Source of the DNA: Wujia chipingensis
Lineage (GTDB): Bacteria; Bacillota; Clostridia; Lachnospirales; Lachnospiraceae
Direction of reading: 5' to 3'
Assembly: GCF_014337155.1 (NCBI RefSeq)
Contig: NZ_CP060632.1
Span: forward strand, 124,001-188,000
DNA: 64,000 bases
The notes below the pieces were generated by a model. It did not search any database. It was not told the DNA's origin and saw only the letters and a list, made by a program, of their open reading frames with translations. Below are positions 9,045 to 14,273 of this stretch, piece after piece. The position numbers and the translations under genes were made by a program. Within the stretch, counting starts at the first letter, position 1. Every line of letters begins with the position of its first letter.

Positions 9045-10344
9045 ATGGGAAACATGGGAGAGAAAAAGTTCAAAATTCAGCACTGGCATATTGTCGCAGT
9101 GATGCTTATGGTGTACGATACAATTGTAGTTAATTTTGCGTATGCGGTTGCATTGTGGTTGCGGTTTGACTGCCGGTTCTCAGCAATTGATATCAAATAT
9201 CTGGAAGCGTGGATCGCATATATACCGGTTCGAACGGTTATCACGCTGACAGTCTTCTGGCTCACAAGTATGTACAAACGAATATGGCGGTTCCTTGGCA
9301 TCCGTGAATTACTGCCAATGACGAACGCGACATTGATCGCAGGACTGATCAACCTGTGTGGAATCACGATCTTCCTGCAGCGTATGCCGATTTCCTACTA
9401 TATATTAGGATTTGTTCTGGAATATGTATGTGAGATCGGACTGCGGTATTCGTATCGTATCTTTGTCACAGAACGAAACCGGGCACATGGCAAGCAGGTG
9501 GACAATGTCATGGTTATTGGAGCCGGTGCGGCAGGACAGACGCTGATGCGGGAAATCCAGCGGTCATCCAAGCTCAACAACATGCTTGTGAAATGTTTTA
9601 TTGATGACAATAAGAACAAGAATGGACGTTTTATTGAGGGTGTTCCGGTAGCAGGAACAAGAGACGATATATTTGCTGCATAAGATCGATCAAATCATCT
9701 TTGCTATTCCAACGGCAACAAAGGATGAGCGTCGGGAGATACTTAATATATGTAACGAGACGGATTGTGTTGTGAAGACCGTGCCAGGTATCTACCAGAT
9801 TGTGGATGGTGATGTGAAGCTGAGTAAGCTCCGGCCGATCTCTATGGAAGATCTGCTCGGAAGAGAACCGATCAAGATAGATCTTGCTAGTATAACCGGC
9901 TATATCGAGGGCAAACGTGTGCTGGTAACCGGTGGAGGCGGCTCGATCGGAAGTGAGCTTTGCAGACAGATCGCGGCAAGCCGGCCGGAACGACTTATCA
10001 TCTTTGATGTATATGAGAACAATGCATACGAGATTGAACAGGAATTACGACATAACTTCCCGAAACTGAATCTGACTGTACTGATTGGATCGGTACGTGA
10101 CAGCTGCAGAATCGAGCGTGTGTTTGAAGAGTATAAACCGCAGATCGTCTACCATGCGGCGGCACACAAGCATGTGCCACTCATGGAGGGAAGTCCTTGC
10201 GAGGCGATCAAAAACAACGTATTTGGCACTTATAAAACCGCACTTGCGGCAATCCGAAATCACTGCGACCGTTTTGTGCTGATCAGTACAGATAAAGCAG
10301 TCAATCCGACAAATGTCATGGGTGCGAGCAAGCGTATGTGTGAG
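9045..10344 (+). pseudogene. Broken capD-type nucleotide-sugar dehydratase/epimerase
   Basis: Two frames together encode most of a membrane nucleotide-sugar 4,6-dehydratase/epimerase of the CapD/WbpM/PglF family, used in polysaccharide or glycan synthesis. Frame 1 (9045-9683) holds the membrane helices and the first Rossmann motif VIGAGAAGQ. Frame 2 (from about 9676) holds IIFAIPTA, the second motif VTGGGGSIGSEL, YHAAAHKHVPLME and STDKAVNPTNVMGASKR. A short deletion near 9680 breaks the frame after DDIFAA. The reading frame then passes straight into UDP-glucose dehydrogenase sequence after KRMCE, so the last 100 or more residues expected of the family are missing. It cannot make a functional dehydratase as it stands. 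Confidence 0.88.
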
Positions 10345-11290
10345 AAGATCAATCATCACATAAGTCCGATTCAGGATGAATATATTGAGAAGTATGGTAA
10401 TTAAGTCCACAATTCCGGTGGGATATACGAAATCCATCCGGAAGAAATATTGTTGTGAAAACATTATTTTCAGTCCGGAATTTCTGCGGGAATCAAAGGC
10501 GTTGTATGATAATTTATACCCAAGCCGTATCATTGTTGGAACGGATATGGATGATGAGAGACTGGTTGCGGCGGCACATACATATGCGGGGCTGTTGCAG
10601 GAAGGCGCAATCAAGGAGAATATTGACACGCTGATCATGGGGTATACGGAAGCAGAGGCGGTCAAGCTTTTTGCAAATACATATCTGGCACTGCGTGTAT
10701 CGTATTTCAACGAGCTCGACACATATGCGGAGATGAAGGGCTTTGATACGCAGCAGATCATCAATGGTGTGTGTTTGGATCCGCGAATCGGCACACATTA
10801 CAATAACCCAAGTTTTGGTTATGGAGGATATTGCCTGCCGAAGGACACAAAGCAGTTGTTGGCGAACTATCAGGATGTGCCGGAGAACCTGATTGAAGCG
10901 ATTGTGGAATCAAACCGGACGAGGAAGGATTATATTGCGGATCGAGTGCTGGAGATTGCTGGAGCGTATGGACCGAATGAAGACTACGATGCTTCGAAGG
11001 AAAAGGAAGTTGTCGTTGGTGTGTACCGCTTGACGATGAAAAGTAATTCGGATAATTTCCGGCAGAGTTCCATCTAGGGAGTCATGAAGCGGATCAAGGC
11101 GAAAGGCGCAACCGTGATCGTGTATGAGCCGACTTTGGAGGATGGTAGCACATTCTTTGGCGGCAGAGTTGTGAATGATCTGGCGCAGTTCAATGATCTG
11201 TCGCAGGCGATCATTGCGAACCGGTATGATGCTTGTCTGGATGATGTGGCGGACAAGGTGTATACGAGAGATATATTTAGGAGAGATTAG
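10345..11290 (+). pseudogene. ugd: Remnant of UDP-glucose 6-dehydrogenase
   Basis: Sequence closely matching bacterial UDP-glucose dehydrogenase, with at least three lesions. First, the N-terminal NAD-binding GxGYVG region is gone and the sequence begins in frame with capD at [17 protein letters not shown]. Second, a deletion at about 10397 removes roughly 50-60 residues and shifts frame into [13 protein letters not shown]. Third, a TAG at 11075 interrupts the last part, which resumes at once as [10 protein letters not shown] and ends FRRD at 11290. The catalytic segment with [13 protein letters not shown] is still readable at 10376-11074. The enzyme would oxidise UDP-glucose to UDP-glucuronate for capsule. 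Confidence 0.92.
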
Positions 11291-11934: not shown

Positions 11935-12789
11935 ATGACTTTATTTTTGATTGGAAATGGTTTTGATTTAATTGTGGTATGAATACGAGATTCTCGGATG
12001 GTTAATTCAGATTCGAAATCTCCTATTATTGAGGCATTCAAAAGAGAAATATCATTGGATATAGATCGTTGGGGTGATTTCGAGATGGAGATGTGTGATT
12101 ATGCGCAATCCCTAAAAACGGAAAAAGAGTTTGTTGAATGTGTCAGGGATTTTTCTGTATATATGAGAGAATATCTAGATAGAGAACAGAAACTTTTTTT
12201 CAAAAGGATAAATGATGAAGCAAAAGAAAAAATAATTCATGATGAGATGGTGGATTCGTTTTCTGGGTTTTACAAAGGAATATCTCATAATGTGAATTCT
12301 ACAATGAGTATAAGAGATGCAGGGCTGCGTAGAAATATCCAGGCGATTTCGTTTAATTACACAGAGGTTTTTGATTATGCTATGGAGAAAGCGTTTGATC
12401 AATATTCATATCGGGCACCTCAGATAATCCATATTCATGGTAAATTAGGGGATGATCCAACGTTAGGAATTGACAATGAAAATCAATGGAAAGCAGCATA
12501 TCCTCTATCAAGAAATGGAAAAAGAGCGTTTGTTAAACCTTTTTTTAATGAAGAATATGACAGGATGCGGGTTGTTGAGGCGGTGAATATAATCAATTCT
12601 GCGGATACGATTTGTACATATGGTTTGGCGCTGGGAGAGTCGGATTTAACATGGAGAAATGTGTTGATTGATTGGCTTCAGAGAAACACGAAAAATCATT
12701 TATTTGTTTATAGATATGGGATATCTCAGAAAACTTATTTATTAGGAAATGTGGAGAAATGTATTCTTTGTCACAGGATAGTTTGTTAA
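11935..12789 (+). pseudogene. Frameshifted AbiH-family abortive-infection gene
   Basis: The start MTLFLIGNGFDL (ATG 11935, after AAGGGGG) is the AbiH N-terminal nucleotide-binding-like motif. It hits a stop at 11980 after a one-base loss; the next frame reads NCGMNTRFSD and then also stops. A third frame from 11998 continues for 263 residues with WGDFEMEM, FNYTEVFDY, HIHGKLGDD and YGLALGESD, all AbiH-like. The C-terminus also looks shortened, after SQKTYLLGN. AbiH proteins confer phage resistance by abortive infection. The third frame has no good ribosome-binding site, so the gene is probably dead. It is AT-rich and borders an intact toxin-antitoxin unit. Confidence 0.8.
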
Positions 12790-12892: not shown

Positions 12893-12924
12893 TTGAAAAT
12901 ATTACTTATAAGTTATATTATAAC
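12893..12924 (+). promoter_or_regulatory. Promoter and palindromic operator of the TA-chaperone operon
   Basis: TTGAAA (12893-12898), 17-base spacer, TATTAT (12916-12921). Two perfect palindromes overlap it: ACTTATAAGT (12904-12913) in the spacer and GTTATA-T-TATAAC (12912-12924) over the -10 box. This is the expected position for repression by an XRE antitoxin. Confidence 0.65.
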
Positions 12925-12948
12925 AATACGAAGGAGGAGACTTGGGGT

Positions 12949-13326
12949 GTGGAATTAGAACAATTACTTATTGAAGAATTAGAAGAGACAATTTCAAGTG
13001 TAAAGAAAGAGTTTCGAAAAGCAGTTGATGAGGCGTGGAGGGAAAATGCGCCTTGGCAGAGATATCAGAAAAAGTTGATTGCAGATCTGGCAGTTTTAGA
13101 ACAGGAAAAAGATCGAGCGATTGATTTGCCGCAATTTGAAAAGTTAACGGGATTTGACAAACTATATAGTATTAGACATCCAGAATCCAGGAAAAATGTA
13201 AGAGTACTTTATACGATTGAAGATGACACCATAATACTGCTTACTGCCTTTTTAGAGAAAAATGCTGGAGATTATCAAAGAGCAATTGAAATTGCTCAAA
13301 AGAGGCTAAAGTGGTTGTTTAGTTAA
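12949..13326 (+). CDS. HigB-like toxin (RelE/ParE superfamily, Gp49-like)
   Basis: 125 residues from a GTG start preceded by AAGGAGGA. After an acidic N-terminal helix, the pattern is that of phage-derived Gp49-like/HigB toxins: PWQRYQKKLIADLAVLEQE, LPQFEKLTGFDKLYSIRHPES, NVRVLYTIEDDTIILLTAFLEKN, then QRAIEIAQKRLKW. Members of this family cleave mRNA at the ribosome. The toxin comes first, before its antitoxin, which is the HigBA order. The 40-residue N-terminal extension is longer than in minimal RelE toxins but usual for the Gp49-like branch. The gene is AT-rich relative to the flanks. Confidence 0.87.
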   Translation: MELEQLLIEELEETISSVKKEFRKAVDEAWRENAPWQRYQKKLIADLAVLEQEKDRAIDLPQFEKLTGFDKLYSIRHPESRKNVRVLYTIEDDTIILLTAFLEKNAGDYQRAIEIAQKRLKWLFS

Positions 13327-13342
13327 TTTAAAAGGATTATAG

Positions 13343-13756
13343 ATGGAGGATATGAAAATGGGAATTGCAGAAAAGATTGCAAATGCAAAGAAGTCAAATT
13401 GGGTTTCAGAAGGTATTTCTAAGTCTGAAGTAAAAACGATTGTTGAGTTAGCAAAGATTTCTGCGCAGATTGAAAGATGCAGACTTGACATGGGCATGAC
13501 ACAACAAAAGTTTGCTGAATATATGGGCGTAACGCAGGCGATGGTTTCTAAGTGGGAAAGTAGGGAATATAATTTCACGATAAGAACATTAAATGAAATT
13601 TGTCAAAAGACAAACTTGAAATTATTTGTTAGTTTGGATAAACCATGTGTAAAATCTGATTATAATATTGTGGAATGGGAGAGCGAAAAGGTAGGAAAGA
13701 AAAGACGGGATAATGGTTATTTACGACTTGTATATGATAAGGGGGCGATTGCATAA
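13343..13756 (+). CDS. HigA-like XRE antitoxin with C-terminal extension
   Basis: 137 residues from ATG 13343; ATGs at 13352 and 13358 are also possible, the last being best spaced from GGAGG. Residues about 45-100 form a helix-turn-helix XRE domain with MTQQKFAEYMGVTQAMVSKWES. The last 40 residues or so (from LFVSLDKPCV) lie beyond the DNA-binding domain. In TAC systems, the antitoxin carries a C-terminal chaperone-addiction segment bound by the SecB-like chaperone; this tail is in the right place to be one, which is inference. It lies 16 bases after the toxin, and its stop overlaps the next start (TAATG). It probably represses the upstream palindromes. Confidence 0.85.
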   Translation: MEDMKMGIAEKIANAKKSNWVSEGISKSEVKTIVELAKISAQIERCRLDMGMTQQKFAEYMGVTQAMVSKWESREYNFTIRTLNEICQKTNLKLFVSLDKPCVKSDYNIVEWESEKVGKKRRDNGYLRLVYDKGAIA

Positions 13757-14187
13757 TGGAGTTAAATCGAATTGCAACAGGAATAAAGTTAGTTGGTACA
13801 ACGATTAAAGAGATTTCTGTTGAAAATAACATAGTGAATGTTCAAAAAGAGGCAAAAAGAAGTTTTGGTCTTAATATTAATGAGCCTAGTTTTGAAAATA
13901 TTGACGAAGGCCTTTTTTCGCAAATGGCTATAGATTTTGAAGTAGAGATAGAGCAGACAGAAGATCGAAATTTTAAATTAGAACTATCTTTAGAAGGAGC
14001 ATTCCTATCAGAAAAAAATACTGAGGAAGAAGATTTTAAACAGCTTGTAATCATAAATGGAGCTGCAGCTCTGATTAGCATTGCAAGAGGAAAAATAGAA
14101 TCGATAACATCTAATATTTTTGACAGCGGAAAAGTTGTTATTCCGTTTGTAAACGTAATTGATTACTATAAAGGTTTGTCAGAATAA
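13756..14187 (+). CDS. SecB-like chaperone of a TAC module
   Basis: 143 residues, acidic. The C-terminal half follows the SecB pattern: a beta strand KLELSLEGAFL, then FKQLVIINGAAALISIARGK, corresponding to the SecB helix after the conserved N, then ITSNIFDSGKVVIPFVNVIDYYK, corresponding to the segment ending in PxxNF in SecB. Firmicutes generally lack the canonical export chaperone SecB, but SecB-like proteins occur as third genes of toxin-antitoxin-chaperone systems, best known in Mycobacterium tuberculosis. Its start overlaps the antitoxin stop by one base, and a terminator follows. The expected job is to fold or protect the antitoxin. No enzymatic motif is seen. Confidence 0.78.
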   Translation: MELNRIATGIKLVGTTIKEISVENNIVNVQKEAKRSFGLNINEPSFENIDEGLFSQMAIDFEVEIEQTEDRNFKLELSLEGAFLSEKNTEEEDFKQLVIINGAAALISIARGKIESITSNIFDSGKVVIPFVNVIDYYKGLSE

Positions 14188-14237
14188 TATTTGACTAAGT
14201 TATAGATCAAGACACATCAAATTAAAACAGTAACGCA

Positions 14238-14273
14238 AAATACCGTGTGGATTCCCCAATCCACACGGTATTT
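14238..14273. terminator. Terminator of the TA-chaperone operon
   Basis: A perfect 15-bp stem: AAATACCGTGTGGAT, loop TCCCCA, and its complement, with A- and T-rich flanks. It could work in both directions, although only the plus-strand operon needs it. Confidence 0.85.

Follow-up and report, generated by a model that had tools for sequence, protein, structure and literature searches.

In the literature cited here, toxin-antitoxin-chaperone (TAC) systems have been characterised in mycobacteria and proteobacteria. The steps that involve the chaperone and the degron are reported as shown for HigA1 of the Mycobacterium tuberculosis system HigB1-HigA1-SecB-TA, Rv1955-1957 (PMC8165232, PMC5105189, PMC6377645), and for CmdTAC, also called PD-T4-9, of Escherichia coli (PMC11618068), whose toxin CmdT is described as an ADP-ribosyltransferase. 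HigBAC is an E. coli TAC with a HigB toxin (Mets et al. 2024, as described in PMC11980606), for which a lambda tail protein is given as the trigger (PMC11980606). The E. coli systems CmdTAC, MqsRAC and HigBAC are all described as acting against phages (PMC9519451, PMC11618068, PMC11980606), and the M. tuberculosis TAC as stress-responsive (PMC4257090, PMC8165232). SecB-like genes in Firmicutes were reported in 2014, with toxin-antitoxin-linked SecB outside the alpha-, beta- and gamma-proteobacteria given as 44 of 70 (PMC4257090).

Here we describe a locus in a window (the whole stretch of DNA analysed) of 64,000 nucleotides from the Lachnospiraceae species Wujia chipingensis (contig NZ_CP060632.1, positions 124,001 to 188,000). 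Positions 12893-14273 of this window hold three tandem open reading frames (ORFs) on the + strand: a toxin gene of a known toxin-antitoxin family, an antitoxin gene with a long C-terminal tail and a SecB-like gene, in an operon-like layout. The architecture is almost certainly that of a TAC, and we consider it very likely that the locus is a tripartite module of the HigBAC type. The tandem order of HigB-like toxin, tailed HigA-like antitoxin and SecB-like gene given in the original prediction is borne out by the ORF listing, Pfam and the SecB fold. Its TAC interpretation holds for architecture, tail and fold, and is not fully supported on three further points: that the module is intact, discussed below, that it functions, and that a functioning TAC in a gut-type Lachnospiraceae would be new. 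The last is weakened by the 2014 precedent (PMC4257090) and by P0077, a protein of 99% identity to which JGI has already given the name SecB; Clostridium sp. CAG:127 is likewise named as the source of a 99% identical protein. A word search of one library of papers found none that joins Lachnospiraceae, toxin-antitoxin and SecB. The kind of system is known; novelty appears to lie in the subfamily and in those of its members that lack chaperone and degron alike.

By its description, HigBAC shares with the window locus the three components and a toxin of the Gp49/HigB families, and differs in host phylum. The M. tuberculosis TAC differs in its chaperone, with 8-12% identity in structural alignments. 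CmdTAC resembles the window module in its chaperone, the PD-T4-9_C profile matching the window protein, and differs in its toxin; membership of the CmdTAC family was rejected, the window toxin having no PD-T4-9_A match in PADLOC and only Gp49 and ParE_toxin matches in Pfam. The SP1558-like streptococcal proteins (2hng, 2o2a), solved as proteins of unknown function, are also among the closest known counterparts.

The three genes and their predicted transcription signals

The third gene (13756-14187, + strand) encodes a protein of 143 amino acids and overlaps the antitoxin gene by one base in the sequence TAATG, as the original prediction stated. A Pfam search, the check proposed there, does find SecB (PF02556), with a score of 20.8 bits (E 3.8e-4) that misses the gathering cut-off of 26, and the NCBIfam SecB match is weak (18 bits, cut-off 143). 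PADLOC assigns the protein to PD-T4-9_C, the PD-T4-9/CmdTAC chaperone, with E 3.6e-6; at E <= 0.01 this profile matches all 12 aligned relatives, PF02556 only two of them. A search of PDB sequences with the third protein gave nothing useful, so structure comparison was needed: the predicted model has SecB topology and aligns with solved structures of SecB, the chaperone of the M. tuberculosis TAC among them. The refuting outcome named in the original prediction, a third gene lacking any match to the SecB fold, therefore did not arise. A chance ORF was rejected, as eight relatives are 61-76% identical and three more 25-47%, and so was an export SecB; the gene is not solitary. The protein also matches PHROG 21664 (E 1.1e-7), a phage family of unknown function that may consist of phage SecB-like chaperones.

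The toxin gene (12949-13326, + strand, GTG start) encodes 125 amino acids and matches Pfam PF05973 Gp49 at 33.9 bits (cut-off 23.9), placing it in the Gp49/HigB type of the RelE superfamily. HigB/RelE structures top the VIA-align list for its model. That model is weak (pLDDT 72.7, with the N-terminal part below 50), and Foldseek returned no match for it at E <= 0.001, so the family assignment rests mostly on Pfam; a PDB sequence search gave nothing useful, only a designed repeat protein. Residues R76, R85, F101 and K104 are kept in the open toxin frame and, matched by spacing, would correspond to R68, R77, F93 and K95 of the M. tuberculosis TAC toxin. A GTG start is shared by the window and six of the eight other toxin starts printed (L004 and L010 differ), which suggests low toxin translation as a recurring feature.

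The antitoxin gene (13358-13756, + strand) encodes a Cro/C1-type helix-turn-helix (HTH) protein of 132 amino acids (Pfam HTH_3, 43.5 bits, cut-off 23). An alternative start at 13343 would give 137 amino acids; 13358 is more likely because GGAGG lies 8 bases upstream and relatives begin at the same methionine. The 16-base gap between toxin and antitoxin in the original prediction is therefore right as the distance to the ATG at 13343, and becomes 31 bases for the likelier start.

A promoter, TTGAAA-17-TATTAT (12893-12921, + strand), precedes the toxin gene. The promoter scan was rejected as evidence in its own right, being near chance (14 found, 11.7 expected), and the call comes instead from alignment: the promoter recurs in all 11 loci compared, window included, which were picked for a placeable toxin start and whose toxins are, where measured, 56-73% identical to that of the window. 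Between and over the promoter hexamers lies the palindrome AATATTACTTATAAGTTATATT (12898-12919, + strand; arms 92% complementary), a probable antitoxin operator. In each of the other 10 loci a similar palindrome, perfect in four, begins 40 to 61 bases upstream of the toxin gene, and across the 11 its typical form is ATATTACTTATAAGTAATAT, flanked by TTGAAA/TTGCAA-like and TATAAT/TATTAT-like hexamers. Such a palindrome would be a natural autorepression site for an HTH antitoxin. At the other end, a hairpin (14238-14273, + strand) with a 16 bp stem and a 4 base loop is strongly stable (-23.1 kcal/mol, z -8.6 against 200 shuffles). It is missing from the output of a pattern-based terminator scan, probably for want of a run of T behind it, and termination there is likely.

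The antitoxin tail and relatives lacking the chaperone

Peptide patterns from the toxin alignment were run against 84,980 species genomes, giving 107 pattern matches and 12 confirmed loci. An antitoxin relative follows the toxin in 11 of the 12, and a SecB-like relative follows the antitoxin in nine (L001-L009). Some of the nine are damaged or incomplete: L006 and L008 have broken toxins, the L009 toxin runs off its contig, and the antitoxin tail of L006 is frameshifted. The TAATG overlap occurs at 10 of 12 junctions, window included (L004 and L031 differ).

The antitoxin tail (13631-13753, + strand), a candidate chaperone-addiction (ChAD) region, has 41 residues, against a median of 8 in 25 Gp49-linked controls, and ends Gly-Ala-Ile-Ala. 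Antitoxins of the close group have in common the motif D-Y-x-I-x-x-W and the end E/G-A/G-I-A; most also have a second W. The codons of the terminal residues vary among relatives (ATT, ATC or ATA for Ile; GCA, GCG or GCT for Ala), so that the residues, not the junction DNA alone, appear to be kept. The Ile-Ala end fits the C-terminal ClpX degrons described in PMC8165232. Where a SecB-like gene lies next to the antitoxin gene, 16 of 21 antitoxins have a degron-like end ([A,V,I,L,S,G,C]-Ala), as do 0 of 32 where there is none; for any terminal Ala the counts are 16/21 and 3/32. The 32 unlinked antitoxins comprise seven from loci met in the searches, whose ORFs were judged by reading, and the 25 Gp49-linked controls, which remained from 30 control loci offered after removal of three repeats of counted loci and two without an HTH ORF; a profile search of the control loci found no SecB-like ORF. 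The second genes of two loci outside the 21 (L035 and L037, CmdA-like) end Ala-Ala.

Two relatives lack both chaperone and degron-like end. In L010 the toxin and antitoxin frames are open and the tail start DHRIIQWDE is kept, with the end ELIEL; the family profile found no SecB-like match in the genome record. L011 has neither a SecB-like gene nor the Ile-Ala end, and has lost the middle of its toxin. Both retain the promoter palindrome. In an antitoxin tree built without the tails, both fall inside a 14-row group with the window (support 92/90), L011 beside L001 (83/84). As they are nested among chaperone-bearing relatives, two losses of the chaperone would be the simplest reading. Joint absence is what chaperone addiction predicts, in that the degron should stay only while the chaperone does.

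SecB binds many clients. The third gene could on that ground be an independent neighbour of an ordinary two-gene higBA pair, serving general protein export, as its Pfam match, to the export chaperone family, would also allow. We regard this as very improbable, given the recurrent TAATG overlap and the joint absence of tail end and chaperone in L010 and L011; in the loci read, moreover, what precedes the SecB-like gene is always the gene of an HTH antitoxin, one resembling CmdA (L035, L037) or that of the HTH protein of L036.

Several observations nevertheless weigh against a chaperone-addicted TAC. Besides the subthreshold Pfam score of the third protein, the Fisher P of 1e-9 for the association between tail end and chaperone overstates it, as the rows are related, and most unlinked controls come from other HigBA subfamilies. 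Five of the 21 SecB-linked antitoxins have no X-Ala end (L006, with its frameshifted tail, L023, L025, L033 and L034), and adding four uncounted SecB-linked loci, namely L078 (ending Ala-Ser), L036 (Ala-Tyr), L035 and L037 (both Ala-Ala), brings the X-Ala count to 18/25. Support for the branch uniting L010 and L011 with the window, though good, carries no star; of the 26 inner branches of the tree, 13 are open and four starred. In L004 the toxin frame is open and the antitoxin ends Ile-Ala, yet the SecB frame has stops, all of which fall in the final 70 bases of a low-coverage contig (6.6). The SecB-like family profile misses distant members, G021 and G071 being unmatched yet holding such genes. 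Finally, the window toxin lacks two residues, one of them a nearly invariant Tyr, that are present in all 22 aligned relatives (picked among 120 listed), which leaves the description of the module as intact not fully supported.

The shortened toxin bears on a further possibility, which, like the other alternatives weighed here, does not exclude the TAC reading: that the locus is a TAC by descent decaying in this strain, its toxin weak or dead and its antitoxin and chaperone persisting as a non-toxic repressor pair. The low-confidence N-terminal third of the toxin model and the relic state of the neighbouring genes are in keeping with this, as are relatives in which the toxin is broken while antitoxin and SecB-like gene are open (L008, L017) or in which the toxin is broken too (L006, L011, L018). 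Set against these are the open frame with its four kept residues and the listing of an identical SecB-like protein (P0001) on 1000 contigs, and we judge decay unlikely.

Distribution and genomic context

Among Lachnospiraceae-family genomes, the SecB-like family profile matches at least 4 of 397, and a widened profile at least 8 of 391 genomes of the class; both counts are lower bounds and include the centre genome G001, positive by construction. A toxin relative is present in 10 of the 397: beside a SecB-like gene in six (G001, G021, G071, G150, G228, G374), as a plain toxin-antitoxin pair in three (G051, G101, G160) and as a fragment in one (G396). PF02556 detects the same gene in 2 of 16 genomes positive by the family profile, once above cut-off, in a comparison that leaves out the family-matched G673, G713 and G733; surveys based on Pfam SecB would therefore largely miss these modules. 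One genome, G007 (Gemmiger), has a second, Pfam-detectable SecB at C62:87208-87513, away from its own TAC.

More distant arrangements were also seen. L025 (1363-2606), in a Lachnospiraceae-family genome, is a TAC-like module whose third protein matches PD-T4-9_C (7e-11) and whose antitoxin ends PTN. L035 (524-1938) and L037 (- strand), in the class sample, are CmdTAC-like modules with a SecB-like third gene; the first gene is ADP-ribosyltransferase-like (PD-T4-9_A, E 8e-4 and 2e-9, respectively), and the second protein is short, ending RAA and EAA. In L036 (- strand) the SecB-like gene stands behind a 234-amino-acid HTH protein with N-terminal cysteines, which we take to resemble MqsA.

The window module is flanked by an AbiH relic and a VanZ-like gene. 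The relic, outside the operon at 11935-12789 (+ strand), matches Pfam AbiH at 62.6 bits, and its frame, opened by the ATG at 11935, meets a TGA 15 codons later, at 11980, so that the AbiH relic bordering the module was correctly called. In a weak test, AbiH matches (E <= 0.001) occurred in 2 of 11 relatives' genomes, on contigs other than that of the TAC, and the adjacency is probably local. Further upstream (9045-11290) lie degenerate polysaccharide genes. A sugar dehydratase of the FlaA1/CapD type is split there into a CoA_binding_3 part and a Polysacc_synt_2 part that covers only 1-156 of 293, and a partial UDP-glucose dehydrogenase comes next. In L001 a 637-amino-acid relative of this dehydratase, with Polysacc_synt_2 coverage of 1-289, begins some 600 bases beyond the TAC on its downstream side.

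A TAC module of the wider family, L019, adjoins an integrase. Toxin and distant-SecB alignments searched in viral contigs yielded two TACs: L046 (4842-6211), with a repressor-like gene on one side and an endopeptidase/holin set on the other, and L078 (4150-5459), beside an integrase, an amidase and a holin. A comparison with named phages gave no match for the chaperone of L046. Searched against viral contigs, the window SecB-like protein gave 15 pattern matches and the SecB-like alignment 39, none confirmed in either case; against plasmids, the window protein found no relative. Among phages, a single weak match to the SecB-like protein was seen, in Marinitoga camini virus 1 (KP836355.1, 35776-35973), with 45.5% identity over 46%.

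These two viral TACs, related to the window module and beside phage genes, bear on whether it could be a stress or addiction module without a phage-defence role, its chaperone sensing general protein stress such as heat or an export jam. The stress-responsive description of the M. tuberculosis TAC speaks for such a role, as does the fact that the window module has no known phage trigger; the anti-phage action described for the three E. coli systems speaks against it, as do L046 and L078. We hold it to be a possible explanation, though not the favoured one.

Proposed mechanism and significance

For the TAC reading, which we prefer, we propose the following mechanism. The antitoxin, alone or with the toxin, would repress its own operon at the promoter palindrome. 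Its tail would bind the chaperone through the stretch around D-Y-x-I-x-x-W, and its final Ile-Ala would serve as a C-terminal degron of the ClpX type. A tetramer of the SecB-like protein would cover the nascent tail, allowing the antitoxin to fold and block the toxin, a putative ribosome-dependent mRNase that would cut mRNA on the ribosome. Unfolded clients, for example new phage structural proteins, would draw the chaperone away; the uncovered Ile-Ala end would then lead ClpXP to destroy the antitoxin, and the freed toxin would stop translation and abort the infection. Dependence of the antitoxin on the chaperone is probable. A phage-defence role is plausible, and the chances that the module senses phage proteins seem to us evenly balanced.

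More tentatively, and with somewhat less confidence than in phage sensing itself, we suggest that Lachnospiraceae and other Clostridia carry a TAC lineage, mostly invisible to Pfam SecB and borne by prophages too, whose chaperone acts as a decoy sensor of phage structural proteins and whose addiction to the chaperone is reversible in nature, chaperone and degron having been lost together twice independently. Naturally matched modules behind promoters of one kind, some with the chaperone gene and some lacking it, make the evolution of chaperone addiction open to test. The family also hints at a putative form of growth arrest set off by phages in Firmicutes of the gut.
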